Assembly: GCF_005877055.1 (NCBI RefSeq)
Contig: NZ_CP039424.1
Span: 2,480,001-2,544,000 of the forward strand
Source of the DNA: Citricoccus sp. SGAir0253
GTDB taxonomy: Bacteria > Actinomycetota > Actinomycetes > Actinomycetales > Micrococcaceae
Direction of reading: 5' to 3'
Length of the DNA stretch: 64,000 nucleotides
Part shown: one piece after another, positions 22,703 through 35,438 of the stretch
Layout: every line of letters begins with the position of its first letter
How positions within the stretch are numbered: the first letter of the stretch is position 1
Position numbers and translations under genes: made by a program
The notes under the pieces: generated by a model
Told to the model about the DNA's origin: nothing
The model's input: only the letters and a program-made list of their open reading frames with translations
The model's database searches: none

Positions 22703-25543
22703 ATGACCGGAAACCACCCGCGGGTCGACCTCGCGGGGATCACCGTCGACCTGATGGACCAGGACGAGGCCATCCGCACCATCACGGCCCGGGCCGCGCA
22801 GCCGGCCGCGGCGGACCGCCGTGCCTGGGACACCGGGACCGAACCGCCCCTGGCCGTCGTCACGGCGACCCTGGACCACGTCGTGCGGTTCGGCACCCGG
22901 GGACCCTGGCGCCGGACGCTCGGCGAGTCCCGACCGCCCCTCGGCCGTGACGCGTGCGATCGGCCGGTGCGGCTGGACTGGCTCACGCTGCCGGCCGGAG
23001 CGCCCCTCGTCACCGCCTCACGCCACATGACCGGCAATGACTGGCCGCGACTGGCAGGCGGTGACCTGATCGGTCCGCTGCTGGATGCCGCGGAGCGGGA
23101 CGGGATCTCGGTCGGGTTCCTGGGCGGCTCCTACCTCGTCCAGCGGTTGCTGTCGCGGCAGCTCGTGCGCGGGCGACCGGGGCTGGCCGTGGCCGGGATG
23201 TGGTCCCCGGACCACAGCGAGCTGACGGACGAGGAGGCCTCACTGCGCCTGGCGCAGGCGATCGCCGATGCCGGGGTGCAACTGCTCGTCGTGGGGCTGG
23301 GCAGGCCGCTCCAGGAACTCTGGATCGATCGCTACGGCCCGTCCACGGGCGCGAACGTCCTCCTGGCCTTCGGGGGCGCGGTCATCGACCTCCTGGCGGG
23401 CGCGGCCAGGCGAGCGCCCCGACGGGTGGCCGACCATGGTCTGGAATGGGCCTGGCGACTGGCCGCTGGGCCGACGCGCCTGGCGAGGCGGTACCTGGTC
23501 GATGACCCGCGGGGCCAGTGGCCGCTGCGCCGGGACAGCAGGGTCCTCGAGGACGCCCCGCGGGACCGTCCGGGCCGGGAGGGCTTCGCCGACCGACCGG
23601 CGGCCACGGCCTCCGATACGGCCGACCGTCCGGACGCGACGCACGGGAGCGGGGCCTTCGTCCCGCTCGGCCGCACGGCCGATGTCGCCGTCCTGGCCGT
23701 GACCCGCGATGACCAGGACGACATCGAGCGATTCGTGGCAGCCCTCCGGCGCGAGGCACACGACGTGCGGTTGCGCCTCGTGGTGGCCGACAACGACTCC
23801 ACCGACCACACCCTCGAACTGCTCCGGGCCCACCCGGACATCACCGTGGTGACCACCGGGGGCAACCTGGGGCGGGCCGCCGGCATCAACGTGGCCCGTC
23901 GGCACCGGGGCGAGGCCGAGGCCGTCCTGGTGCTACACCCCGGCCTGGAGGTCCGTCCCGGTGCGGTCCGCCACCTCCTGTCCGAGATCCGTTCGGGGCG
24001 GGCCGACCTCGTCGTCCCCCGGCTCGTGGACCACGAGGGGACGACCCAGCACTCCCTCCACCGGGAACCCAGCGTGGCGCGCGTGTTCGGGGATGCCCTT
24101 CCCGCCGCGCTCCGGACACGGCTCCCAGCGGTCCTGACCGGGACGCTCACCGCACCCGAGGGCTACCAGTTCGGCCACGAGGTGGAATGGGCCACCGGGG
24201 CAGCCGTCATGGTACGGGCCGACCTCGACCGGCGTCTGGGCGAGTGGGACGAGAGGTTCTTCCCCTCCGGCGAGGACACGGACTACTTCCGTCGGGCCAG
24301 GGCCTCCGGTGCCGTCGTTCGCTACGCGCCCGGCGCGGTGATGGCCCGCTGCGAGGCGCCCGGTCCCCCGGAACCCCCCGCCCTGGCGGCCGTCAATCGC
24401 GTCCGCTACATGCGCAAGCACCACTCCGAGACGGTCACCACCGTCTACCGGGTCGGTCTGGCGCTGCGGGAGCTGCTGCGCCTGCACGTCCCGGAGCGGC
24501 GGGGCGTCCTGGCCGCCGTCGCCGACGAGGGACGGTGGCAGGGCCTTCCCGGCCCCACCGCGTCCCGCCACCCGGCCACCGTCCTGTCCGGCTTCCCGCG
24601 GGGTGCGGTCATCATCCCCGCGCGCAACGCGGCCGACGTCATCCTGCGGACGCTCTCCGCCCTGGATCCGGTGCTGCGGACGGGCCGGGTGGAGGTGATC
24701 GTGGCATGCAACGGCTGTACCGACGACACGGCGATCCTGGCTGCCTCCGTGCCGGGGGTGCAGGTGATCGACTGCCCAGTGGCGTCAACGGCGGCCGCCA
24801 TGAACGCGGGTGATGCCGTGGCCACGCGCTGGCCCCGCGTCTACCTCGCGGCGGACGTCGAGATCACCCCGACGACGCTGCGCCGCGTCCTCGAGCAACT
24901 CCGCTCCCCGGTCCTGGCCGCCCGTCCGGCCTACCGCTACGACGACGTGGGCGCCAGCTGGCCGGTGCGCGCATACTACAGGGCCAGGTGTCGGCTGCCC
25001 AGGACGGAGCGGGCGCTGTCGGGAGCGGGCGTCTTCGGCCTCACCGAAGCGGGGCACGCCCGCCTGGGCACGTTCCCGGAGGTCACGGCCCTCGACGTGT
25101 TCGTGGATCGCTCCTTCGCCCAGGAGGAGAAGATGACCGTGCCGGCCCCGCCGGTGGCTGTCCGCACGCCCCACGACGTGCGGTCCCTGCTGGCGGTCCT
25201 GCGCCATGATCTCCGAGCGACGCTCAGCCTCCCCGGCGCTGCGGTCAGGGGGGCCGGGGACGAGGCCTCGGGGACCTGTCGTCCGGACGTCCCGGCGAGC
25301 ACGGCAGGCTCCACGTTCTGGGAGTTCGTCCGTGCCGTCCGCGGACCCAGGAGCGCGGTGGACGCCCTGTCGTCCGGCCCACTGGCCGCCGCTCCCCGGC
25401 TCGGCCGTCGAGTCCGCCTCCGGGTGGGACCCGTGGTCGGCCCCGGGGCCATCGCGTGGGAGTGGGACGCCCCCCGGAGGCGGCCGGCCCGGCGGCCCGG
25501 GGACCCCGCAGTGGAGGCCCCGCAGGACCGCCCGGGTCCCTGA
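22703..25543 (+). CDS. Three-domain glycosyltransferase fusion: TagA/WecG (GT26) - GT2 - GT2, 946 aa
   Basis: Surface-glycan glycosyltransferase. ATG 22703 with CAGGAGGA. Residues about 5-275 form a WecG/TagA/CpsF domain: V-G-F-L-G-G-S, L-L-V-V-G-L-G-R-P-L-Q-E-L-W-I, A-F-G-G-A-V-I-D-L-L-A-G, R-R-A-P-R-R-V, G-L-E-W-A-W-R-L. Residues about 322-600 form a rhamnosyltransferase-like GT2 domain (V-V-A-D-N-D-S-T-D-H-T, G-E-D-T-D-Y-F-R-R-A), and about 632-840 a second GT2 domain (I-I-P-A-R-N-A-A-D, V-A-C-N-G-C-T-D-D-T). Relatives with one such domain are 240-330 aa. In the GT26 part the usual L-P-D-G reads L-P-A-G (A98); in GT2-1 the usual N-P-D reads H-P-G (G414). Donor and acceptor unknown. Convergent with the operon after it. 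Confidence 0.85.
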   Translation: MTGNHPRVDLAGITVDLMDQDEAIRTITARAAQPAAADRRAWDTGTEPPLAVVTATLDHVVRFGTRGPWRRTLGESRPPLGRDACDRPVRLDWLTLPAGAPLVTASRHMTGNDWPRLAGGDLIGPLLDAAERDGISVGFLGGSYLVQRLLSRQLVRGRPGLAVAGMWSPDHSELTDEEASLRLAQAIADAGVQLLVVGLGRPLQELWIDRYGPSTGANVLLAFGGAVIDLLAGAARRAPRRVADHGLEWAWRLAAGPTRLARRYLVDDPRGQWPLRRDSRVLEDAPRDRPGREGFADRPAATASDTADRPDATHGSGAFVPLGRTADVAVLAVTRDDQDDIERFVAALRREAHDVRLRLVVADNDSTDHTLELLRAHPDITVVTTGGNLGRAAGINVARRHRGEAEAVLVLHPGLEVRPGAVRHLLSEIRSGRADLVVPRLVDHEGTTQHSLHREPSVARVFGDALPAALRTRLPAVLTGTLTAPEGYQFGHEVEWATGAAVMVRADLDRRLGEWDERFFPSGEDTDYFRRARASGAVVRYAPGAVMARCEAPGPPEPPALAAVNRVRYMRKHHSETVTTVYRVGLALRELLRLHVPERRGVLAAVADEGRWQGLPGPTASRHPATVLSGFPRGAVIIPARNAADVILRTLSALDPVLRTGRVEVIVACNGCTDDTAILAASVPGVQVIDCPVASTAAAMNAGDAVATRWPRVYLAADVEITPTTLRRVLEQLRSPVLAARPAYRYDDVGASWPVRAYYRARCRLPRTERALSGAGVFGLTEAGHARLGTFPEVTALDVFVDRSFAQEEKMTVPAPPVAVRTPHDVRSLLAVLRHDLRATLSLPGAAVRGAGDEASGTCRPDVPASTAGSTFWEFVRAVRGPRSAVDALSSGPLAAAPRLGRRVRLRVGPVVGPGAIAWEWDAPRRRPARRPGDPAVEAPQDRPGP

Positions 25544-25597
25544 CGCGCCGGTGAGTCCGGTGCGCCCACGCCTCGCCGGCGCGTGGTCCGCTGGACT
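25543..25597. terminator. Candidate bidirectional terminator between convergent glycosyltransferase genes
   Basis: Inverted repeat 25543-25551 / 25576-25584 (9 bp), and an overlapping one with GAGTCC (25553-25558) / GGACTC (25592-25597). Two alternative folds; moderate support only. Confidence 0.4.
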
Positions 25598-25631
25598 CCG
25601 AGTGCGACCCGGGCAACCAGCCCGATGGGCC

Positions 25632-26840
25632 TCAGGCCATGACCTCGCCCCGGGCCCAGCGCTCCCGCGCCACCGCCGACCCGAACTCCCGCACCGCGTA
25701 GTAGCGGGCGTCGACGACCACCGTCCGCGCGCGTGAGCGGACCTCACTGCCGTGGACGCGGCGGTCCAGGGCGGTATCCACGTAGGCGGCTGCGAGCTGC
25801 TCGGCAGCCCGGTCCAGGCCGTAGCGGCGCTGCACCAGTTCCCGTCCGAGGTCTCCCAGACGGCGGCGCAGGGATTCCGAGCCGGCCAGTGCCTCCAGGG
25901 CGCCGGCCAGGTCCCGCACTCCCGCGCCCTGGCGGCCGAACCAACCACGCGTGACGAACCCGGCCACGCTGTCCTCGTCCACCAGCCTCCAGAAGCCCCC
26001 CTCTCCGTGCACCACGAGCGGCTTGGCGTGGGCCAGCCCCCTGAGGGCCGAGGAGCCCATGCCGATGACGATGTCCGCCGCCTCGTAGATCGACGCGGAG
26101 TCCGGCGGCACGTCCACCGGCTGCACCACGGTCCACCCATGGTGTGCGTTGACGGCGGCGGCGCGTCGCTCCACCGTCCCCCGGCCCTCTCCGTCACCGG
26201 CGATCAGCAGCCGGACCGGGCGGGTGGCCGCCATCCGGTCTGCCACCCGGATGGCCTCCAGCACCGCCTGCAGCCGCTCCAGTTCCGGCGTCAGTCCGGC
26301 CACGACCACGATGGCCAGGGCACCTCCCGGCACCTCCCACCGCTTGCGCGCCGCGGCCGTGCCGACATATCCGCCCGGCCGGTGCAGCTCCAGGTCCACG
26401 GGCGGCTCCACCAGGTGGGTCCGGTGGCCCCGCGCGGTCATGCGGCGGTGCAGCTCTGGGGTCCCGACGACGACCGGCAGGCGCGGGGGCACGAGGGAAG
26501 GCACGTCCGTGGGGCTGAGCGACACGAGTGCGGGCAGGTTCCCGAAGCAGCCGAGGGTCGTCCTGAGGCCCGGCTGCCATCCGTAGACATGCAGCATGTC
26601 CGGCCGCACCTCGCGCACCACGCGTGCCAACCGCCGGGACCAGGACGGTCGCGGGTCATCCGGAGCCGGGGCCGCCACCCAGTCCAGGCCGGCGTCCCGC
26701 GCGACCTCGGCCAGCGCTCCCGGCGGGGCATAGACCACGGGACGATGGCCATACCCCCGCATCGCGCAGGCGAGGTCTACGGCGCTGGCCCGGCCACCAC
26801 CGCCCCCTCCGGGCGGACGGGGACAGACGAGGACCTTCAT
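25632..26840 (-). CDS. Glycosyltransferase family 4-like protein
   Basis: GT-B fold glycosyltransferase. ATG 26840 with AAGGAG ribosome site. N-terminal Rossmann half starts K-V-L-V-C-P-R-P-P-G-G-G-G-G-G (Gly-rich loop where GT4 enzymes have G-G-x-x). The C-terminal half has V-V-A-G-L-T-P-E-L-E-R, L-L-I-A-G-D-G-E-G-R, A-D-I-V-I-G-M-G-S-S-A-L-R-G and A-K-P-L-V-V-H-G-E-G-G-F-W. The E-x7-E pattern of classical GT4 is not visible, as in the G-M-G-S-S-A-L subgroup. 402 aa. Third protein-coding step of a minus-strand operon after the sugar transferase and DegT genes; 30 nt behind the latter. Sugar unknown. Confidence 0.82.
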   Translation of the reverse strand: MKVLVCPRPPGGGGGGRASAVDLACAMRGYGHRPVVYAPPGALAEVARDAGLDWVAAPAPDDPRPSWSRRLARVVREVRPDMLHVYGWQPGLRTTLGCFGNLPALVSLSPTDVPSLVPPRLPVVVGTPELHRRMTARGHRTHLVEPPVDLELHRPGGYVGTAAARKRWEVPGGALAIVVVAGLTPELERLQAVLEAIRVADRMAATRPVRLLIAGDGEGRGTVERRAAAVNAHHGWTVVQPVDVPPDSASIYEAADIVIGMGSSALRGLAHAKPLVVHGEGGFWRLVDEDSVAGFVTRGWFGRQGAGVRDLAGALEALAGSESLRRRLGDLGRELVQRRYGLDRAAEQLAAAYVDTALDRRVHGSEVRSRARTVVVDARYYAVREFGSAVARERWARGEVMA

Positions 26841-26870
26841 GGCGGGACTCCTTCCATGTCACGTCACCGT

Positions 26871-28043
26871 CTAGGAGCCGTGGGGATCCGGGCGGCGACG
26901 CGGTGCCTCGGCCGCCGCCAGCAGGCTCGCGCAGACCCGCACGTGCTCCTCCGCCGTCATGGTGTGGAACACCGGCAGGACGATCGTGCTTCCGGCCAGT
27001 CGCTCGGTCACCGGCAGGGGCCGGACGCGGCCGGAGTGACCGGCGTAGGCGTCCTGGAGATGGACGGCCATGATGCCGCGCCGCGCGGAGATGCCGTCCG
27101 CCGAGAGCCACTCGAGGAGCTCCTCACGGTCCAGGGGGAACTCGGGCAGCACCTCCACCCAGCAGGACTGGACGTTCGACGTGCCGTACTGGGGATCCCG
27201 GACCAGGCGCAGTCCCGCGACCGAGGCGAACACGTCCCGGTAGTCGGCCGCGAGCGCCCGACGTCGCCGGACCATCTCGGGCAGCTTGCCGAGCTGGACC
27301 AGGCCGACCGCGGCCTGCAGGTCGGTCATGCGGTAGCTGAACCCGATCTCCGGATACCGCTCGCGAGGCGGCAGGGCCTGGGCGAGCGGCTCCGGGGAGG
27401 AGGGATCCATCGAGTGCTCCCGCAGGCGCCGCGCCCGGGCCGCCCACCCCGGGTTGTCGGTCGTGAGCATGCCGCCCTCACCGGTCGTCAGGACGGCGCG
27501 CGCATCGAAGGACCAGGCCGTGATGTCCGCGCCGGCGCCCACCGGTCGGCCCCGGTACGTTGATCCCGCACTGCCGGCCGCGTCCTCGACGAGGGCGAGG
27601 GAATGCCGGTCGCACAACTCGCGCAGGGGAGCCAGGTCCACCGGCAGGCCGCCCTGGTCCACGGCGACGATGGCCGTGGTCCGCGGCGTGATGACCTCGT
27701 CCACCGTGGCAGCCGTGACGGTACCGGTCTCGAGGTCGACATCGGCGAACACCGGCCGCGCACCCACGTAGGTCACGGCATTCGAGGTCGCCACGAACGA
27801 CAACGAGGGGACGATCACGTCATCGCCGGGCTGCACCCCGGCGACGAGTAGTGCAACGTGGAGTGCCGCCGTCCCGGAGGACATGGCCACCCCGAGCGAC
27901 ACGCCCTGCGCCGCGGCGAAGGCCCGTTCGAACTCCGCGGTCCGCGGTCCCTGTGCCATCCACCCGGAGTCCATGACCCTGATGACGGCGTCGGTCTCCC
28001 CGCGACCGAGCCAGGGCCTCATGACGCTGATCCGGTCGCTCAC
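26871..28043 (-). CDS. DegT/DnrJ/EryC1-family protein lacking the PLP lysine
   Basis: Fold type I aminotransferase family that normally aminates keto-sugar nucleotides with PLP. 390 aa, normal length, with M-S-S-G-T-A-A-L-H near residue 54, V-E-D-A-A-G-S-A-G near 157 (Asp for the PLP ring) and T-T-G-E-G-G-M. The lysine that should form the Schiff base, in S-F-H-P-R-K-x-x-T-T-G-E-G, is Ala: the segment reads W-S-F-D-A-R-A-V-L-T-T-G-E-G-G (A183, codon GCC). So it should not be a normal aminotransferase. It could be a dead regulator, a structural partner, or use another chemistry. The GTG start overlaps the TGA of a 32-codon gene; no ribosome site, so coupled. Confidence 0.85.
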   Translation of the reverse strand: MSDRISVMRPWLGRGETDAVIRVMDSGWMAQGPRTAEFERAFAAAQGVSLGVAMSSGTAALHVALLVAGVQPGDDVIVPSLSFVATSNAVTYVGARPVFADVDLETGTVTAATVDEVITPRTTAIVAVDQGGLPVDLAPLRELCDRHSLALVEDAAGSAGSTYRGRPVGAGADITAWSFDARAVLTTGEGGMLTTDNPGWAARARRLREHSMDPSSPEPLAQALPPRERYPEIGFSYRMTDLQAAVGLVQLGKLPEMVRRRRALAADYRDVFASVAGLRLVRDPQYGTSNVQSCWVEVLPEFPLDREELLEWLSADGISARRGIMAVHLQDAYAGHSGRVRPLPVTERLAGSTIVLPVFHTMTAEEHVRVCASLLAAAEAPRRRPDPHGS

Positions 28044-28138
28044 GTCGAGACCGACGTTCTCGCCCCCGGGGCGGCAGGCCCGGGATCTACGGAGGGGGGT
28101 GGGGCGGCAGGGACAGAGGTGTCGATGGCGAGACTCAT
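28040..28138 (-). CDS. 32-codon gene bridging the sugar transferase and DegT genes
   Basis: ATG 28138 overlaps the last base of the sugar transferase stop (TGATG), and its TGA overlaps the GTG of the DegT gene (GTGA). It encodes M-S-L-A-I-D-T-S-V-P-A, then a Pro/Ala-rich stretch ending R-T-S-V-S-T. No homologue recognised, no membrane segment. The exact joints on both sides suggest it is translated, at least to carry ribosomes into the DegT start, which has no ribosome site. The peptide itself may have no role. Confidence 0.45.
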   Translation of the reverse strand: MSLAIDTSVPAAPPPSVDPGPAAPGARTSVST

Positions 28139-29700
28139 CAGGATGCTCCCTCGGGACGGATCATGACGCGGACGGTGCGCCACATGATCGAGAGATCGCC
28201 CAGGACGGACCAGTCCTCGGCGTGACGGGGATCGGGCCGCACGTTCTCGGCCCACTCGAGGCCGGACCGACGGCTGACCTGCCATGGGCCCGTCATCCCG
28301 GGCGTGATGTCGAGCCGGTGGCGCTCCGGGCCGGCGGAGGTGGTGACCTCCAGCGGCATCGAGGGCGGCGGTCCCACGATGGACATGTCCCCGCGCAGCA
28401 CGTTCCAGAACTGGGGCACATCGTCCAGGGAGTGCCGGCGCAGCACCCGCCCGACCCGGGTGACCCGCGGGTCCTGGCGGGGCGTGGACAGGGACCCCTC
28501 CACCTCGCCGGTGGCCTGCGGCGTCGCCCGCTCCTCCCCGGTGGCCACCAGGGTGCGGAACTTGTACATCCGGAAGGGCCTGCCCTGGCGGCCAGTGCGC
28601 GTCTGGGCGAGGATCACCCCGCCCGGGGAGTCCCGCCGGACCAGCACGGCGATCACGGCGAACAGCGGCAGCATCACCAGCAGGGCCAGGGAGGCGATGA
28701 CCACGTCCATGGCCCTCTTGACCACGTGCCGGGCCCCCTCGGAGGCCGACTGGCCCACGTGCACCAGGGGCAGGCCCCCCACCGTCCGGACACGGCTCGG
28801 CGGTCCCGGGACACCGGTCACCAGGGGCGCGAGGATGATCGCGACCCCGGTGGGTCCCACGGCCCGCGTGAGCTCGCGGACGACCCGGCTGTCGCCGCAC
28901 GGCGGGCCGGTGATGACCAGGGCTTCCGCCCGGAGGTCCCGGACGGCCCCCTCGGCCTCCTCGAGGCCCACGTAGCATGCCGCGCGGTGGACCTCTCCCC
29001 AGTCCTGGACGGCGTCGTCGAGGGTGACCTCTCCGTCGAGGACGACACCCACCACCCTGTAGGCGCCTGCGGCCTCCCGCTCCACGAGGCGCACCACGGA
29101 CCGCACGTCCGCAGGCGGGCCCACGACCACGACGTCCGAGAGGTCGTGGCCCTGCCGCCGACGTCTTCGCAGCCAGGACCGCCAGGACCATCTCCCGGCC
29201 AGGAGCCCGGCCAGCCCTAGGGGGAACAGGAGGACCAGCAGGGCACGGACACCGGTCCCGGGTCCCAGCACGCCCACGACGGCGACCATGCCTGCCGCCG
29301 CGGCGGTCCCGACGAGCACCCGCCGGTACTCGACGGTCCCGATGCCGACCTCCCACGGCGACCGGGTGCCGGACAGCTGGAGCATGGTGGCCCACAGCAG
29401 CGTGACGATGGCGACCATCCCCGGTGAGGGTGCCCCGCCTGCCGGCCCGGTGACCGAGTACAGCGGCCCTACCAGGCCGGCAGCGGCCACGACGACCGCC
29501 AGGTCCGTGACCAGGACCCGGCGGACGTAGCTCCGCTGCCAGTCGACGGCACGGAGGCCAGTGCCCACCAGCCCGCGGGGGGACAGGGCGAGGGACGAGG
29601 ATGCATCGGGCCCTCCGGACGCCTGCTGGTCCCTCCCCGACCGGGGCGGCGTGGCCGACACCGGGAGACAGGAGGGGTGCCGGGCGGAGATGAGGGCCAT
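28138..29700 (-). CDS. Polyprenyl-phosphate sugar-1-phosphate transferase (WbaP/WcaJ-type)
   Basis: Integral membrane enzyme that puts the first sugar phosphate on undecaprenyl phosphate for polysaccharide synthesis. 520 aa from ATG 29700 with GGCGGGAG upstream. Four N-terminal helices (first V-L-V-T-D-L-A-V-V-V-A-A-A), a nucleotide-binding-like middle part (V-V-V-V-G-P-P-A-D-V), then the catalytic module: K-R-A-M-D-V-V-I-A-S with its membrane hairpin, M-Y-K-F-R-T, L-D-D-V-P-Q-F-W-N-V-L-R-G-D-M-S-I-V-G-P-P-P and I-T-P-G-M-T-G-P-W-Q-V-S. The usual Asp-Glu dyad (D-E-L-P-Q) is Asp-Asp (D426-D427) and the usual G-P-R-P is G-P-P-P. First gene of the operon. Confidence 0.9.
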   Translation of the reverse strand: MALISARHPSCLPVSATPPRSGRDQQASGGPDASSSLALSPRGLVGTGLRAVDWQRSYVRRVLVTDLAVVVAAAGLVGPLYSVTGPAGGAPSPGMVAIVTLLWATMLQLSGTRSPWEVGIGTVEYRRVLVGTAAAAGMVAVVGVLGPGTGVRALLVLLFPLGLAGLLAGRWSWRSWLRRRRRQGHDLSDVVVVGPPADVRSVVRLVEREAAGAYRVVGVVLDGEVTLDDAVQDWGEVHRAACYVGLEEAEGAVRDLRAEALVITGPPCGDSRVVRELTRAVGPTGVAIILAPLVTGVPGPPSRVRTVGGLPLVHVGQSASEGARHVVKRAMDVVIASLALLVMLPLFAVIAVLVRRDSPGGVILAQTRTGRQGRPFRMYKFRTLVATGEERATPQATGEVEGSLSTPRQDPRVTRVGRVLRRHSLDDVPQFWNVLRGDMSIVGPPPSMPLEVTTSAGPERHRLDITPGMTGPWQVSRRSGLEWAENVRPDPRHAEDWSVLGDLSIMWRTVRVMIRPEGAS

Positions 29701-30051: not shown

Positions 30052-32709
30052 CTAGGCGGGCAGGTCCCGCAGCTCGGAGCGGTCGGAGATGCCCAGCTTG
30101 GTGAACACCCGGTACAGGTGGCCCTCCACGGTGCGCTGCGAGACGAACAACCTCTCGGCCACCTCCGCGTTGCTCAGCCCGGCCGCCGCGAGGTCCACGA
30201 TCTCCTGCTCGCGGGCCGTGAGCTCGCCCAGGGCCAGGGCCCCGGCCACGTACGGCGGGAACCACAGTCCGCTCCTGACCTGCAGCCGCTTCAGGTGGCG
30301 CAGGGCCTCGCCGCGGCGGCGCAGGTCTCCGCCGGCGTGGTGGAGGAGCACGAGCCGGGACCACGCCACGGCGGCCGGCAGGACCTCCCCGGCCACGGCC
30401 ATCTCCTCGGCGGCCGCGGCCAGCCCCCGTGGGTCCTCCGCGAGCGCCGGGTCGAGGACCCGCACCAGGGCCTCGGACCGGGGACCGTCCATCCCCGCGC
30501 AGGTCCGGTGCAGCCGGGCCATGACCCCGTCGTCCTCGGCCTGGGGCGCCCGCAGCAGCAGCAGGGTGTACAGGATCTCCCGCCGCACCACGGGATCCTG
30601 TTCCAGGCGCGGGTCGTCGAGGATCCGGCGCCATAGCGGCTGGTGGTCGTCGGCGTACTCCCGGGTCCGGTCCTGGGCCAGGCTGAACAGGGCCAGGGCC
30701 AGCAGCCAGCGTCCCCGGGAGCCCTGCTGGGCTCGGCGTGCCCGTTCCTCCACGCGGAGGTCCTGCGGTACCGGGGACAGGGCGGCCCGGTGGGGGGCCA
30801 GCGCCGCCTCGGCCAGCAGGAGCAGCTGGGCCGGGTCGTGGTGGCGGAGCTCCACGACCGCGTCCCGGAGCCGGGCCACGGTCGAGGTGCTGCCGCCGTG
30901 CGAGGAGTCGACCAGAGCGCGCAGGGCCAGCACGGTGCCGGAGCGCTGGTACCAGTGGCGGGGCGCGAGCCGTTCCTGCTCGTCCAGGACCCGGCGGGCC
31001 TCCTCCAGGTGCCCGGCCGTCGTGTGGCTCAGGACCAGGTGGACGAGCGCGTAGTTCCCGAACCGCGCCGAGAAGGCGGGGGTGCTGGTGGCCAGCCCGT
31101 ACGCCCTCCGGGCGGCCTCGATCGCCTCGGCGCTCCGGCCGGCGAGGCCCAGCAGGTCGGACTCCAGCACGAGCAGGATCGCCCGGGTGCCGTCCTCCGT
31201 GGCGGGGTCCTCGACCAGCGCGCGCGCCCGCTCGAGCAGCTCCTCGCGGCGGTCGTCCACGTCCTCCTCGCCCAGCAGCTCCACCAGCCCGGCGAGGGGC
31301 GCGGGCAGTCCGGGATCGGCCCCGCCCCGGGCGCGGACCCCGGCGACCGCGGGCGGCAGTGCCGCCCACGCGTGCGGTGCCTGGCCGGTGCGTACGCGGT
31401 CCATCGCGAGCAGGGAGTAGGCCTCGATCCGGTAGGCGGGGTCGGGCGCCCGCGCCGCCAGCTCCTCGAGCTCGGCCCGGGCCGTCCAGGTGCGTCCGGA
31501 GACGAGCATCAGCTCGGCCACCAGGAGCGCCGCGCGCGGGTCCCGGCTCCCGGCCAGTGCCGGGGCCAGGGCCCGGGCGGTCGGCCAGTCCTTCGCCCCC
31601 AGGGCCCGGTAGCCGGCCCCGACGACGGCCTCCTCCGGCACCTCCCGGCCGCACTCCAGGGCCCACAGGACCGACCGCGCGGTGGGCGGCTGCCCGTCGT
31701 CCCCGCCGGCGGACTCCCACCGGGCGTACAGGTCTGCGCTGCGGCCCGGCGGCACGCACGTGCGGAGCACCTCCGCGTGCAGGGCCGCGGACAGTTCCAC
31801 GCGGTCGGCCCCCGTGCCCCGCACGAGTCCGGCCTCCAGCAGGTCCGGGACGTGGTCGCCGGCCACCGCGCGCAGCCGGGCGCGGGGCATCGGCCCGGCC
31901 AGGGCCAGCAGCTCGAGGGTCTCCCGCTCGCCCGGCAGCAGGGAGGCGTGCATCGACTCCACGGTGTCCACGAGCCGCACGTCCGGCTCCGGCGCGGCGC
32001 GCAGCAGGATCCAGGGGGTGGGGTGGCCGGGCATCGCCGGCCCGTCCGGGGCCGGGACCAGCACCCCCTGCTCCCGGGCGGACTCGAGGAAGGCGGCGGT
32101 GAGGCGCGGGTTGCCCCCCGTCATGCCGTGGATGGTGCGGACGGTCCCCTCGGTCAGGGGGGCGCCGACCGCCCGCTCGCACTGGCGCCGCACCCGCTCC
32201 GGGCAGGCCGGCTCCATGCGCACCGTGGCCAGGAGCCCCGTGTCCGCCAGCGCGGCGATGCCCGACTCCCGGCCCAGCGATCCCGTCCCGATGGCCACCA
32301 GGGTGGCCGCGCGGTTCTGCACCAGCTGGGCGAGCACGAAGGCGCTCGCGGCGTCGAGGTACTGCACGTCCACCACCACGATCACGGGCGAGGTGTCCAG
32401 CAACTGCAGCGCCCGCAGGACTGCCACGGGCGAGTCCAGGTCGTCCAGCCCGGTCAGCAGCGGCACCAGCGCCCCGTACGGCACCTCGCGCAGCGACTGG
32501 CTGCACTGCACCGTGAGCACCCGGTCGGACAACTCCGCCAGGTCCAGGGCGGCCCGGACGAGGGAGGACTTCCCCGTCCCGGGACCGCCGAGGACCACGG
32601 CGCCGGCCTCCCGGCCCCCGCGGAGCACGTCCAGCAGCGACTTCAGCTCGGGGCTGTCCGCGGGGACCGCGCTGCGCGGTCCCCGCAGCCCCGTCGTCGC
32701 CTGCCTCAT
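30052..32709 (-). CDS. LuxR-family ATPase regulator (LAL-type), intact P-loop, 885 aa
   Basis: Large transcription regulator: N-terminal AAA/STAND-type ATPase, long helical (TPR-like) middle, C-terminal LuxR DNA-binding domain. Walker A L-G-G-P-G-T-G-K-S-S near residue 40, Walker-B-like V-I-V-V-V-D-V-Q-Y-L-D near 110. C-terminal HTH L-T-A-R-E-Q-E-I-V-D-L-A-A-A-G-L-S-N-A-E with Q-R-T-V-E-G-H-L-Y-R-V-F-T-K-L. The ATG at 32709 overlaps the stop of the preceding regulator gene (ATGA), so the two are coupled and may act together. Lies head-on to the divergent end of the polysaccharide operon; control of that operon is inference. Confidence 0.85.
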   Translation of the reverse strand: MRQATTGLRGPRSAVPADSPELKSLLDVLRGGREAGAVVLGGPGTGKSSLVRAALDLAELSDRVLTVQCSQSLREVPYGALVPLLTGLDDLDSPVAVLRALQLLDTSPVIVVVDVQYLDAASAFVLAQLVQNRAATLVAIGTGSLGRESGIAALADTGLLATVRMEPACPERVRRQCERAVGAPLTEGTVRTIHGMTGGNPRLTAAFLESAREQGVLVPAPDGPAMPGHPTPWILLRAAPEPDVRLVDTVESMHASLLPGERETLELLALAGPMPRARLRAVAGDHVPDLLEAGLVRGTGADRVELSAALHAEVLRTCVPPGRSADLYARWESAGGDDGQPPTARSVLWALECGREVPEEAVVGAGYRALGAKDWPTARALAPALAGSRDPRAALLVAELMLVSGRTWTARAELEELAARAPDPAYRIEAYSLLAMDRVRTGQAPHAWAALPPAVAGVRARGGADPGLPAPLAGLVELLGEEDVDDRREELLERARALVEDPATEDGTRAILLVLESDLLGLAGRSAEAIEAARRAYGLATSTPAFSARFGNYALVHLVLSHTTAGHLEEARRVLDEQERLAPRHWYQRSGTVLALRALVDSSHGGSTSTVARLRDAVVELRHHDPAQLLLLAEAALAPHRAALSPVPQDLRVEERARRAQQGSRGRWLLALALFSLAQDRTREYADDHQPLWRRILDDPRLEQDPVVRREILYTLLLLRAPQAEDDGVMARLHRTCAGMDGPRSEALVRVLDPALAEDPRGLAAAAEEMAVAGEVLPAAVAWSRLVLLHHAGGDLRRRGEALRHLKRLQVRSGLWFPPYVAGALALGELTAREQEIVDLAAAGLSNAEVAERLFVSQRTVEGHLYRVFTKLGISDRSELRDLPA

Positions 32710-35438
32710 CGGCCGGCCCCGAGATGCACCTGCGCCCGGGCCAGCCGGGCCAGGTCGGCCCGCCCGCGCACCTGCAGCTTCGCGTAGATCTGGTACAGGT
32801 GGCCCTCCACCGTCCGGATGGAGATGCCGGTGATCCGCGCGATCACGGCGTTCGTCCGCCCCTCGACCACGAGCCGGGCGACCTCCCGCTCGCGCCGCGT
32901 GAGCTCGGCCATCCAGGCCGGGTCGGCGTCGGCCTGGTCCTCGGCGCCCCCCGCGGGACGCCGGGAGGGCGCCGCCTCGGCGATGCGCCGCAGCGCCTGG
33001 GGCGGGAGGGCGCGCAGCAGCGGCGTCGCAGCCCACTCCAGGTGCGCGGCGAAACCGGCCGCGGCCAGGCCCTCGAGGGCCTGGACGCGCAGTTCCTCGT
33101 CATCCTCCAGGACCCAGCGGGCCAGCAGCAGGTGCGGGGCCGAGGTGGTGGTCTGGGTGCACGCCGCGGCCTCGGCCAGCCGCGCGGCCACCCGGAACTC
33201 GCCCAGCTGGAAGACGCTGGCCAACGCGGTGAACTCGACCGCGTAGAGCCCCGCCTCCGCCGCCCGGTCCGCCAGGGCCAGGACCCGCGCGGTGCCCGCC
33301 TCCGGGGAGTGGGTCCGCGCCGTGGACCAGGCCAGCATCAGCTCGGCGAGCCAGCCCAGGCGGCCCAGCGGCTGGTCCGCGGGCTGCCCCGACTGGCCGT
33401 CCATGAGCGCCTCCAGCAGCGTGGAGTCCCGGACGTCCTCGCCGTCGCTGCAGAACACCGTGATCGCGCGCGCCACCTGCAGCTCGTGGGGATTGCCCCC
33501 GGCCTCGAGCTGGGCCGCCAGGCGTGCGGCCCGGTGGTGGGCCTGCTCCCGCTCGCCCGTCACGGCGTCGAGGACCGCGAGCACGAGCTCGGCGTACTGG
33601 GCGGCCAGGGGGTGTCCGTGACGGCCGTCCAGGACGGCCTCGGCCACCTCGCGGCAGCGCTCGATCCGTCCGCAGGCGAGCAGCACGTTCAGCACCGACT
33701 GGGCGAGCACGGCGCGGTCCGAGGCGCCGAGCACGTCGTCGATGATGCCGTCGGCCTCGAAGCGGCCGAGCTCGGCATCGAGCCGGTCCAGCAGGCGCAG
33801 GGCACCGTCCTGGTCGTCGGCCAGGGCGAGGGCCTCCGCCCGCAGGGCCTGGGCCCGGCAGCGCACCGCCTCGCCCGTGAGGCCCGAGCTGGCGGGCGAC
33901 AGGAGGCCGGGCAGGTGCTCCGCGGGGACCAGGTCCAGCCGCGCGTGGGCCTCGCGGACGTCCCCGCGGGCGACGGCCACGCTGGCCGCCACCACGCTCA
34001 GCGCGGCGGACGAGCCCTGCGGGAACCGGCGCACGACGGCCTCGGCCCCGTCCAGGTCGCCCGCCGCCACCCGGGCGCGGGCCTCGGCCCAGGCCACGTA
34101 CAGGCCGGCGGGCGGCCCGGGGACCCCGGCCGGGACCGTGCCGGGGGCGGGCCAGTCGGTCTCGGCGAACAGGGACACGGCGCCCCGGACGTCGCCGAGC
34201 AGCATCAGCTCGTCGGCGGCCCGCAGGACGCTGAGGAAGCCCGGGTCCAGGGCCTCGAGCGTGACGGCCAGTTCCCGGCGCCGGTCCGGCTCGATGGCCG
34301 CGAGGGTCTCGGCGGCCTGCACCGGGGTGAGGGAGGCGATCCGCCCGGAGTGGTCGTTGCGCAGCTCGAGGGCGCCCCCGGCGTGCAGGGCGTCCAGCTC
34401 GTGGGCGAAGCCGTCGTGGATCAGCTCGCTGACCTTGCGGGGACCGCAGACGGCGAGCGCCTCCAGCAGCGCGCGCTGGCGCTGCGGCAGGTGGCGCAGG
34501 GACGTCATGGGCATGCCGGCGGCGCCCGTCCGGGGCAGCGGGCCGGAGCCCAGGATCCAGCAGGACCCGGACCGGCGCAGCTTGCCCTCGGCGACGCAGT
34601 CGCGCGCGAGCCGGCGCAGGCGGCTCGCGGAACCGCCGGCGTGCCGCCACAGGACCGTCAGGGCGAACCGCGAGACGGGCCCGTCCAGCACCTCCTCGAG
34701 CAGGCCCTCCGCGGCGGCCGGCGTGAGCGGCCCGACGGTGATGCCCTCCAGGACGCCGGCGCGCAGCAGGGCGGCCAGGTCCACGGGGACGTCCGAGAGG
34801 CGGTCGCAGTGCACGACCAGGGTGATGCGGCCCAGCTGCGCGAGCTGGGACAGCACCGTGAGGGTGCCCGCGTCGATCTGGTGGGCCTGGGACACGATGA
34901 CCACGGCCGGCGGCTGGCCGGCCGGGCGGACGTAGTCGGAGAGCGTGCGGATCATGCCGTGCAGGGAGGACGGCGGGGCCTGGTCGAGTCCGGAGAGGAG
35001 GATGGACAGGGCCGCGTAGGGCGTGGCCACGGCGAACGCGCTGCCGTGCAGGCGGAAGACGGTCCGCTCCGGCGGCAGCGCGGCGATGGCCGCCTCGATG
35101 GTCTCCCGCCGGTCGCCGGCCTCGCCGGAGAGGATGGCCCCTCCGGGACGGTCGGCGGACAGGATCCGGCCGAGGGCCGTGGTGGCCTCGTGGGGGGACT
35201 CCATCCAGCGGCCGTCCCGGCCGGAGCCCAGCCAGGCCAGGGCCGGTCGCGCGGGATGGCGACGGGCGGCCGGCCGGGGGGTGTCCGGTGGTTCGGGGGG
35301 CGTCGGCCGGCCCGGGGCAGCCGCGGCCGCGGGCCGGGCGCCCGGCGGGGAGGCCGGGGAGGGTGTCCTGGGACTGGTGGTGGTCGGTGGGGCCGCCCGG
35401 GGGATGGGAGCGGCGTGGGTCGGATGAGACGGATGCAT
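32706..35438 (-). CDS. LuxR-family regulator with degenerate ATPase, 910 aa
   Basis: Same architecture as the following gene, but the ATP site is lost: the P-loop position reads L-S-G-E-A-G-D-R-R-E-T (no G-K-T/S) and the Walker B position I-V-S-Q-A-H-Q-I-D lacks the Asp pair. C-terminal LuxR HTH is complete: L-T-R-R-E-R-E-V-A-R-L-V-V-E-G-R-T-N-A, R-T-V-E-G-H-L-Y-Q-I-Y-A-K-L. The first about 75 residues are Pro/Ala-rich; ATG 35438 follows CGAGGG at 10 nt, and an in-frame ATG about 78 codons on (M-E-S-P-H-E-A-T) is a possible alternative. First gene of the pair. It may form a mixed complex with the ATP-binding partner. Confidence 0.82.
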   Translation of the reverse strand: MHPSHPTHAAPIPRAAPPTTTSPRTPSPASPPGARPAAAAAPGRPTPPEPPDTPRPAARRHPARPALAWLGSGRDGRWMESPHEATTALGRILSADRPGGAILSGEAGDRRETIEAAIAALPPERTVFRLHGSAFAVATPYAALSILLSGLDQAPPSSLHGMIRTLSDYVRPAGQPPAVVIVSQAHQIDAGTLTVLSQLAQLGRITLVVHCDRLSDVPVDLAALLRAGVLEGITVGPLTPAAAEGLLEEVLDGPVSRFALTVLWRHAGGSASRLRRLARDCVAEGKLRRSGSCWILGSGPLPRTGAAGMPMTSLRHLPQRQRALLEALAVCGPRKVSELIHDGFAHELDALHAGGALELRNDHSGRIASLTPVQAAETLAAIEPDRRRELAVTLEALDPGFLSVLRAADELMLLGDVRGAVSLFAETDWPAPGTVPAGVPGPPAGLYVAWAEARARVAAGDLDGAEAVVRRFPQGSSAALSVVAASVAVARGDVREAHARLDLVPAEHLPGLLSPASSGLTGEAVRCRAQALRAEALALADDQDGALRLLDRLDAELGRFEADGIIDDVLGASDRAVLAQSVLNVLLACGRIERCREVAEAVLDGRHGHPLAAQYAELVLAVLDAVTGEREQAHHRAARLAAQLEAGGNPHELQVARAITVFCSDGEDVRDSTLLEALMDGQSGQPADQPLGRLGWLAELMLAWSTARTHSPEAGTARVLALADRAAEAGLYAVEFTALASVFQLGEFRVAARLAEAAACTQTTTSAPHLLLARWVLEDDEELRVQALEGLAAAGFAAHLEWAATPLLRALPPQALRRIAEAAPSRRPAGGAEDQADADPAWMAELTRREREVARLVVEGRTNAVIARITGISIRTVEGHLYQIYAKLQVRGRADLARLARAQVHLGAGR

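Follow-up and report, generated by a model that had tools for sequence, protein, structure and literature searches.

The window analysed here, a stretch of 64,000 nucleotides from Citricoccus sp. SGAir0253 (NZ_CP039424.1, positions 2,480,001 to 2,544,000; G000:C1:2480001-2544000), contains at 22703-29700 a locus of four intact frames which code for a fused TagA/WecG-GT2-GT2 protein, a GT4-like glycosyltransferase, a DegT-like protein (DegT/DnrJ/EryC1/StrS family) and a phosphoglycosyl transferase (PGT). Two large LuxR-type regulators lie next to them. As judged from its genes, the locus is what remains of a Wzx/Wzy exopolysaccharide cluster. We consider it fairly likely that the original glycan is no longer made by this reduced cluster and that its DegT-like protein, which lacks the lysine that binds pyridoxal phosphate (PLP), has been kept by selection as a non-catalytic pseudoenzyme. 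The four intact frames and their families had been reported correctly by the first-pass annotation of this DNA.

All four proteins have lost residues that are invariant among the homologues compared. The fused protein is similar to the WecG/TagA/CpsF domain (PF03808, 127.7 bits), and its residue 98 falls in the column taken by Asp in the 'VPDG' motif of a solved TagA; this Asp, the proposed general base, is found in all 26 homologues, while the window protein has Ala. In the first GT2 domain the motif N-P-D, with Asn412 and Asp414 invariant in the same 26 homologues, is changed to H-P-G (N412H, D414G), and in the second GT2 domain two further invariant Asp residues are replaced (D716A, D797L). 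Acidic motifs are thus defective in both GT2 domains, and we take the positions concerned (412/414, 716, 797) to be active-site residues. Altogether, 35 of 158 invariant columns are lost, compared to 0-6.0% in 26 leave-one-out controls. The losses favour polar residues (25 of 70, as against 10 of 88 others; p=4e-4), while Gly and Pro are spared (3 of 35). A match to the fused protein occurs in four of the eight genus genomes, and the three besides the window keep the residues. Relatives were found in 30 of 149 family genomes, two of which match the TagA part only.

For the PGT, Glu427 is invariant in 30 homologues, some of which are perhaps from other clusters. The window has Asp at this position, so that the Asp-Glu dyad, which is catalytic in monotopic PGTs (PMC10942596), is no longer present. 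In addition, Arg445 is replaced by Pro, the conserved GPRP reads GPPP, and 28 of 105 invariant columns are lost (0-7.9% in 30 leave-one-out controls). In the GT4-like protein the GGSQLN signature is hit (S16G/Q17R/L18A), as is E87, which is replaced by Gly. Here 14 of 57 invariant columns are lost in a comparison with 13 sequences, which are mostly N-terminal parts and some of which share a genome. Controls reach up to 8/65 except for L084 (39.8% identical, 36/92 changed), which was taken as non-orthologous and set aside, yet is still contained in the reference set. Misalignment of the motifs was considered and ruled out, as homologues hold the catalytic residues in the same columns; the losses are thus real. 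All residues named by the first-pass annotation (A98, H412, G414, A183, D426, D427) are in the sequence and their reference residues are invariant in the homologues compared, but its list was too short, as it had overlooked D716A, D797L, R445P of the PGT, and S16G/Q17R/L18A/E87G of the GT4-like protein.

The DegT-like protein resembles its family over the full length (PF01041, 334.7 bits, residues 16-374; PDB 3dr4/3bn1). Its Schiff-base lysine, present in 23 of 23 Lys-type orthologues compared, is replaced by Ala at position 183. The lysine is also missing from Citricoccus sp. CH26A (G060) and Citricoccus sp. WCRC_4 (G133), which have Ala, and from Micrococcus sp. Bu38 (G119), which has Thr. 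In an exact pattern scan, which divergent motifs would escape, the Ala/Thr form was found in 4 of 395 family genomes, all from one genus; 88 of the 395, from 11 of 32 genera, have the Lys form. At E 1e-60, relatives of DegT occur in 32 of 149 family genomes, and seven of the eight genus genomes carry the gene. The window protein has lost 13 of 131 invariant columns, with 15 lost in G133, 15 in G060 and 11 in G119 (0-3.7% in 23 Lys-type controls). Measured by distance in the sequence rather than in the structure, these losses are closer than expected by chance to positions which we take to be anchors of the PLP site (p 1e-4 for G133, 8e-4 for G060, 0.009 for the window, 0.02 for the union of the four), and this is also the case when residue 183 is left out (p 3e-4, 0.002 and 0.02 for G133, G060 and the window). 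The window genome codes for two other DegT homologues elsewhere (34 and 37% identical). A role of the Lys-less protein as regulatory partner of an active DegT is unlikely in G060 and G133, where no second match exists at E 1e-20. A plasmid search with DegT returned 78 records, all below 60% identity and 69 of them from Rhizobium.

Three congeners, G034, G082 and Citricoccus zhacaiensis (G102), carry a cluster that runs from the PGT to the fused gene over some 20.5 kb, with K183, the TagA Asp, N-P-D, D-A-D and D-E all in place. In G034, where the cluster was studied in most detail, it consists of LuxR2, LuxR1, the PGT, a Gfo/Idh oxidoreductase, an NAD-dependent epimerase/dehydratase, DegT, GT4 and a second DegT, followed by a flippase, a GT2, further transferase-like genes, a Wzy_C polymerase and the fused protein; for G082 and G102 the comparison covered the main genes. 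The flippase is found in all three, and Wzy_C in G034, the sole genome scanned for it. The window locus lacks some ten genes of the G034 cluster, including flippase, polymerase, dehydratase, oxidoreductase and second DegT. No flippase or polymerase is found among the frames of the locus (a genome-wide search for Wzy was not made). The remaining genes lie close together: PGT and DegT are separated by 94 bp and GT4 and the fused gene by 88 bp, where the G034 counterparts are about 2.2 kb and 11 kb, and the distance from glmU to the fused gene is 0.8 kb in the window versus 13.8 kb in G102 (on one contig). G060, G133 and G119 retain another set of remnants than the window. None of these three has a flippase match to PF13440, and the single match in the window genome lies elsewhere, at 960 kb. 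It is part of a second polysaccharide-type region outside the window (G000:C1, about 950-967 kb; L048, L052, L071), which also contains a PGT and two DegT homologues, one of them with the motif SFNGNK and the lysine kept. The first-pass annotation had suggested a possible new kind of glycan system. This is not borne out, since the locus is without flippase, polymerase and further sugar genes of the congener clusters, and among the eight genus genomes all four proteins with these substitutions occur together in the window species only.

The DegT tree unites the four Lys-less genes (ultrafast bootstrap 96 for protein, 93 for nucleotide sequences), and this topology beats two other placements of the window gene by 8.6 and 10.0 log-likelihood (lnL) units. 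As the altered motif QDA is common to G060 and G133, the lysine was lost before their split. The ratio of nonsynonymous to synonymous substitution rates (omega) for this pair is 0.053, with 20, 3 and 49 differences at the three codon positions. On the two tips omega is 0.067 versus 0.052 elsewhere, and fixing omega at 1 costs 56.6 lnL units. For comparison, two Lys-type DegT pairs give 0.039 and 0.031, and two GlmU pairs 0.026 and 0.051. When omega was left free on the stem leading to the Lys-less genes, it came to 1.9, but on a very short branch, and this value was not used. DegT in G060 and G133 is under strong purifying selection after the loss and hence is not decaying there: a catalytic residue has been lost and the protein has been maintained afterwards, as would be expected of a selected pseudoenzyme. 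The earlier claim that the substitutions are 'not simple decay' therefore holds for DegT, with four species lacking the lysine and purifying selection in the pair that shares the loss, while for the window transferases it may or may not hold.

A second protein behaves similarly in the relatives. The Gfo/Idh/MocA proteins of G060, G133 and G119 are open frames with altered motifs: the GxGxxG motif is changed in G060 and G133 (GAGYWGP to GADSGTP), and the lysine of EKP is replaced by Gln in G119 (EQP). Across tests omega is 0.12-0.14; it is 0.120 for the trio versus 0.047 elsewhere, and a model with omega 1 fits worse by 97 lnL units. The PGT of the same genomes is a 168-aa fragment in G060, interrupted by a stop in G119 and mostly deleted in G133, so that broken genes are tolerated in these genomes. 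The PGT remnants of L079, L080 and L081 lie in the same place, between LuxR1 and the Gfo/Idh gene, and represent three stages of loss (deletion, stop and fragment).

In the order of events that we infer, the locus was stripped of several genes in this lineage, among them those for flippase, polymerase, dehydratase, oxidoreductase and second DegT, and the leftover enzymes came to lack catalytic residues. Both the initiating PGT and the TagA-type domain were probably switched off since undecaprenyl phosphate would otherwise be caught in lipid-linked sugars that can be neither flipped nor polymerised. Such trapping upon loss of a flippase while earlier steps are active, and the selection of mutants that stop the pathway early, have been described (PMC12826051). 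The PGT of the locus has lost catalytic residues in the window and is broken or mostly deleted in G060, G119 and G133, which fits a shut-down of the first step. This carrier-lipid reason leaves the constraint on DegT and Gfo/Idh unexplained, and thus a non-catalytic role is the simplest reading. The Lys-less DegT may serve a function that is independent of catalysis, or at least of the lysine, with a nucleotide sugar, PLP or another protein as conceivable binding partners, and the Gfo/Idh protein with its changed cofactor or catalytic motif has been kept likewise in the relatives. It is possible, though we propose this only tentatively, that an exopolysaccharide locus of a single genus has been turned into a whole set of selected pseudoenzymes (DegT and Gfo/Idh, and in the window the glycosyltransferases) that is kept to bind, sense or scaffold, perhaps in concert with the neighbouring pair of LuxR regulators.

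Several observations weigh against a shut-down pathway with a selected pseudoenzyme. Asp65 is the proposed base of TagA, and the Asp65Ala protein has a rate of 0.052 uM/min where the wild type has 1.5 and 1.0 (PMC6493773); as a few per cent of the activity are retained, to call the window domain dead may be an overstatement. The losses of the window PGT show no polar bias (12/46 vs 16/59), and its changes L489P, L491P, G477R and A298P are likely to damage the fold; both are as in decay. The Gfo/Idh protein is more relaxed than DegT, though still constrained. For DegT itself, the losses in G119 are not clustered near the PLP anchors (p 0.46), and all Lys-less branches jointly have an omega of 0.064 versus 0.042 for the rest (2.3 lnL units), a mild relaxation. 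On the window's own branch dS reaches about 3 or more, and with such saturation the codon test says little on recent selection there. The clade of four genes depends on the DegT tree: attempts at a species tree with GlmU, GlmU+Prs and LuxR1 were not decisive, with G119 left unresolved by GlmU+Prs and a support of 57 for LuxR1. Finally, G133 and G119 are metagenome assemblies.

Plain gene decay, in which the cluster had become useless, selection was relaxed and the long frames have not yet been broken, is rather unlikely as an explanation of the whole. It would account for the loss of 22-27% of the invariant residues in the fused protein and the PGT, for the ten or so missing genes and for the overtly broken PGT in the relatives, and GC-biased change would turn Asp, Asn and Lys into Ala, Gly and His. 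In each of the four genes, AT to GC changes do exceed GC to AT changes per site at the first and second codon positions, which fits that direction, and the same is seen at lower rates in GlmU and hence is not special. Codon use had been called normal, which we could not confirm: the GC content at third codon positions (GC3) of the four genes is 0.88-0.92, below the 0.936-1.00 of the other window genes longer than 600 nt in this comparison. The low GC3 fits decay, but the cluster orthologues of the congeners are also low (0.81-0.93), so that this feature is, in part at least, long-standing in the cluster and does not prove decay. The omega of 0.05-0.14 for DegT and Gfo/Idh after the loss in the relatives, and the polar skew of the losses in the fused protein with Gly and Pro spared, speak against decay. 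So do neutral simulations, in which the congener genes were evolved to the lost fraction in 60 runs each, without indels (for GT4 the target was fixed by hand at 20%, with 14/57 observed). At the base composition of the window, 3% of the runs remain free of stops for the fused protein, 2% for the PGT, 20% for GT4 and 52% for DegT; at an extreme 94% GC these values are 13, 28, 45 and 73%. The simulation argues against a long neutral phase and would be compatible with relaxed selection. The fused protein, the GT4 and the PGT of the window are each represented by a single strain of one species, and branch tests are saturated; the loss of 22-27% of their invariant residues without stop or frameshift may reflect either selection or slow decay.

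It is quite improbable that the chemistry has changed and the Lys-less DegT is still an enzyme, using for example pyridoxamine phosphate as a reagent as does ColD, which has His in place of Lys. Residues D154, S178 and T58 are invariant across an alignment of 31 sequences including the Lys-less genes, and replacement of the lysine by His has precedents in ColD, E1 and SpnQ (PMC8987622). However, the His of ColD-type enzymes serves as acid and base (PMC8987622), whereas the residue found here is variable and either Ala or Thr; furthermore, N236, which is invariant in the 23 Lys-type orthologues, is altered in three of the four Lys-less proteins, and the dehydratase gene of the congener clusters is missing at the window locus. 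A sequencing or assembly error in the window is hardly credible. Nothing was found in its favour, the 90 changed invariant residues (35+28+13+14) are spread over four genes without a frameshift, and the DegT lysine is also gone in three other genomes.

The features of the locus are listed in the table below. LuxR1 adjoins the locus in intact and reduced relatives alike. No Walker A motif was seen by eye in LuxR2 (GEAGDRRETIE, versus GGPGTGKSS in LuxR1); the variant also occurs in a G034 frame and is thus an old feature.

Table. Features of the Citricoccus locus (window coordinates) and Gfo/Idh/MocA frames of the relatives (locus coordinates)
Feature	Position	Strand	Remarks
Fused TagA/WecG-GT2-GT2 protein, 946 aa	22703..25543	+	35/158 invariant residues lost
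A98 codon, for Asp aligned to the proposed TagA general base (Asp65)	22994..22996	+	
H412-P-G414 replacing N-P-D, first GT2 domain	23936..23944	+	
A716, first Asp of D-A-D lost, second GT2 domain	24848..24850	+	
L797 for invariant Asp, second GT2 domain	25091..25093	+	
GT4 glycosyltransferase-like protein, 402 aa	25632..26840	-	GGSQLN signature replaced; 14/57 invariant residues lost
DegT/DnrJ/EryC1/StrS-like protein, 390 aa	26871..28043	-	no PLP lysine; orthologous to the Lys-type DegT of other Micrococcaceae
A183 codon (GCC) replacing the PLP lysine	27495..27497	-	
PGT (Bac_transf)	28138..29700	-	Asp-Glu to Asp-Asp, GPRP to GPPP; 28/105 invariant residues lost
PGT D426-D427 codons	28420..28425	-	
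LuxR1, large LuxR-type regulator with AAA region	30052..32709	-	start is the gene finder's choice
LuxR2, second large LuxR-type regulator	32706..35438	-	
Gfo/Idh/MocA proteins of three relatives	L081:13874-15022, L079:7830-8981, L080:5703-6785		open frames

From a family search alone, the locus would be annotated as one for an amino sugar and its glycosyltransferases; when the residues are considered, there is probably no glycan. With three genomes that carry the cluster and four in which it is reduced, one genus provides a natural series in which loss of catalysis can be separated from maintenance of the protein. If a role in sensing or scaffolding holds true, sugar-nucleotide enzymes would have found a new use that needs no catalysis. 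Should there be merely a lag before decay, the locus would still illustrate clearly how a pathway is closed down via catalytic residues instead of stops. Within the part of the matches covered in the open-access literature we found no account of a Lys-less DegT pseudoenzyme or of the locus, which does not establish novelty in print.

The closest known systems are the Wzx/Wzy exopolysaccharide clusters of Micrococcaceae such as that of Citricoccus zhacaiensis, with which the window shares the families, the order of the kept genes and the fused TagA-GT2-GT2 protein. It differs from them in lacking flippase, polymerase, dehydratase, oxidoreductase and second DegT, and in that the kept enzymes are without catalytic residues. 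The DegT-like protein is similar over its full length to the DegT/DnrJ/EryC1/StrS sugar aminotransferases (perosamine synthase, ArnB, PseC), but in the window and the three Lys-less relatives Ala or Thr is found in place of the PLP lysine. The 3-dehydratases ColD, E1 and SpnQ (PMC8987622) are likewise relatives of aminotransferases without the lysine; they have a catalytic His, which the Lys-less proteins described here do not. EcpK, a tyrosine pseudokinase of Myxococcus xanthus (PMC12004946), is also an enzyme relative short of catalytic residues and works in exopolysaccharide synthesis, which makes it a precedent. It belongs to an unrelated family and serves a working Wzx/Wzy pathway, as shown by experiment.

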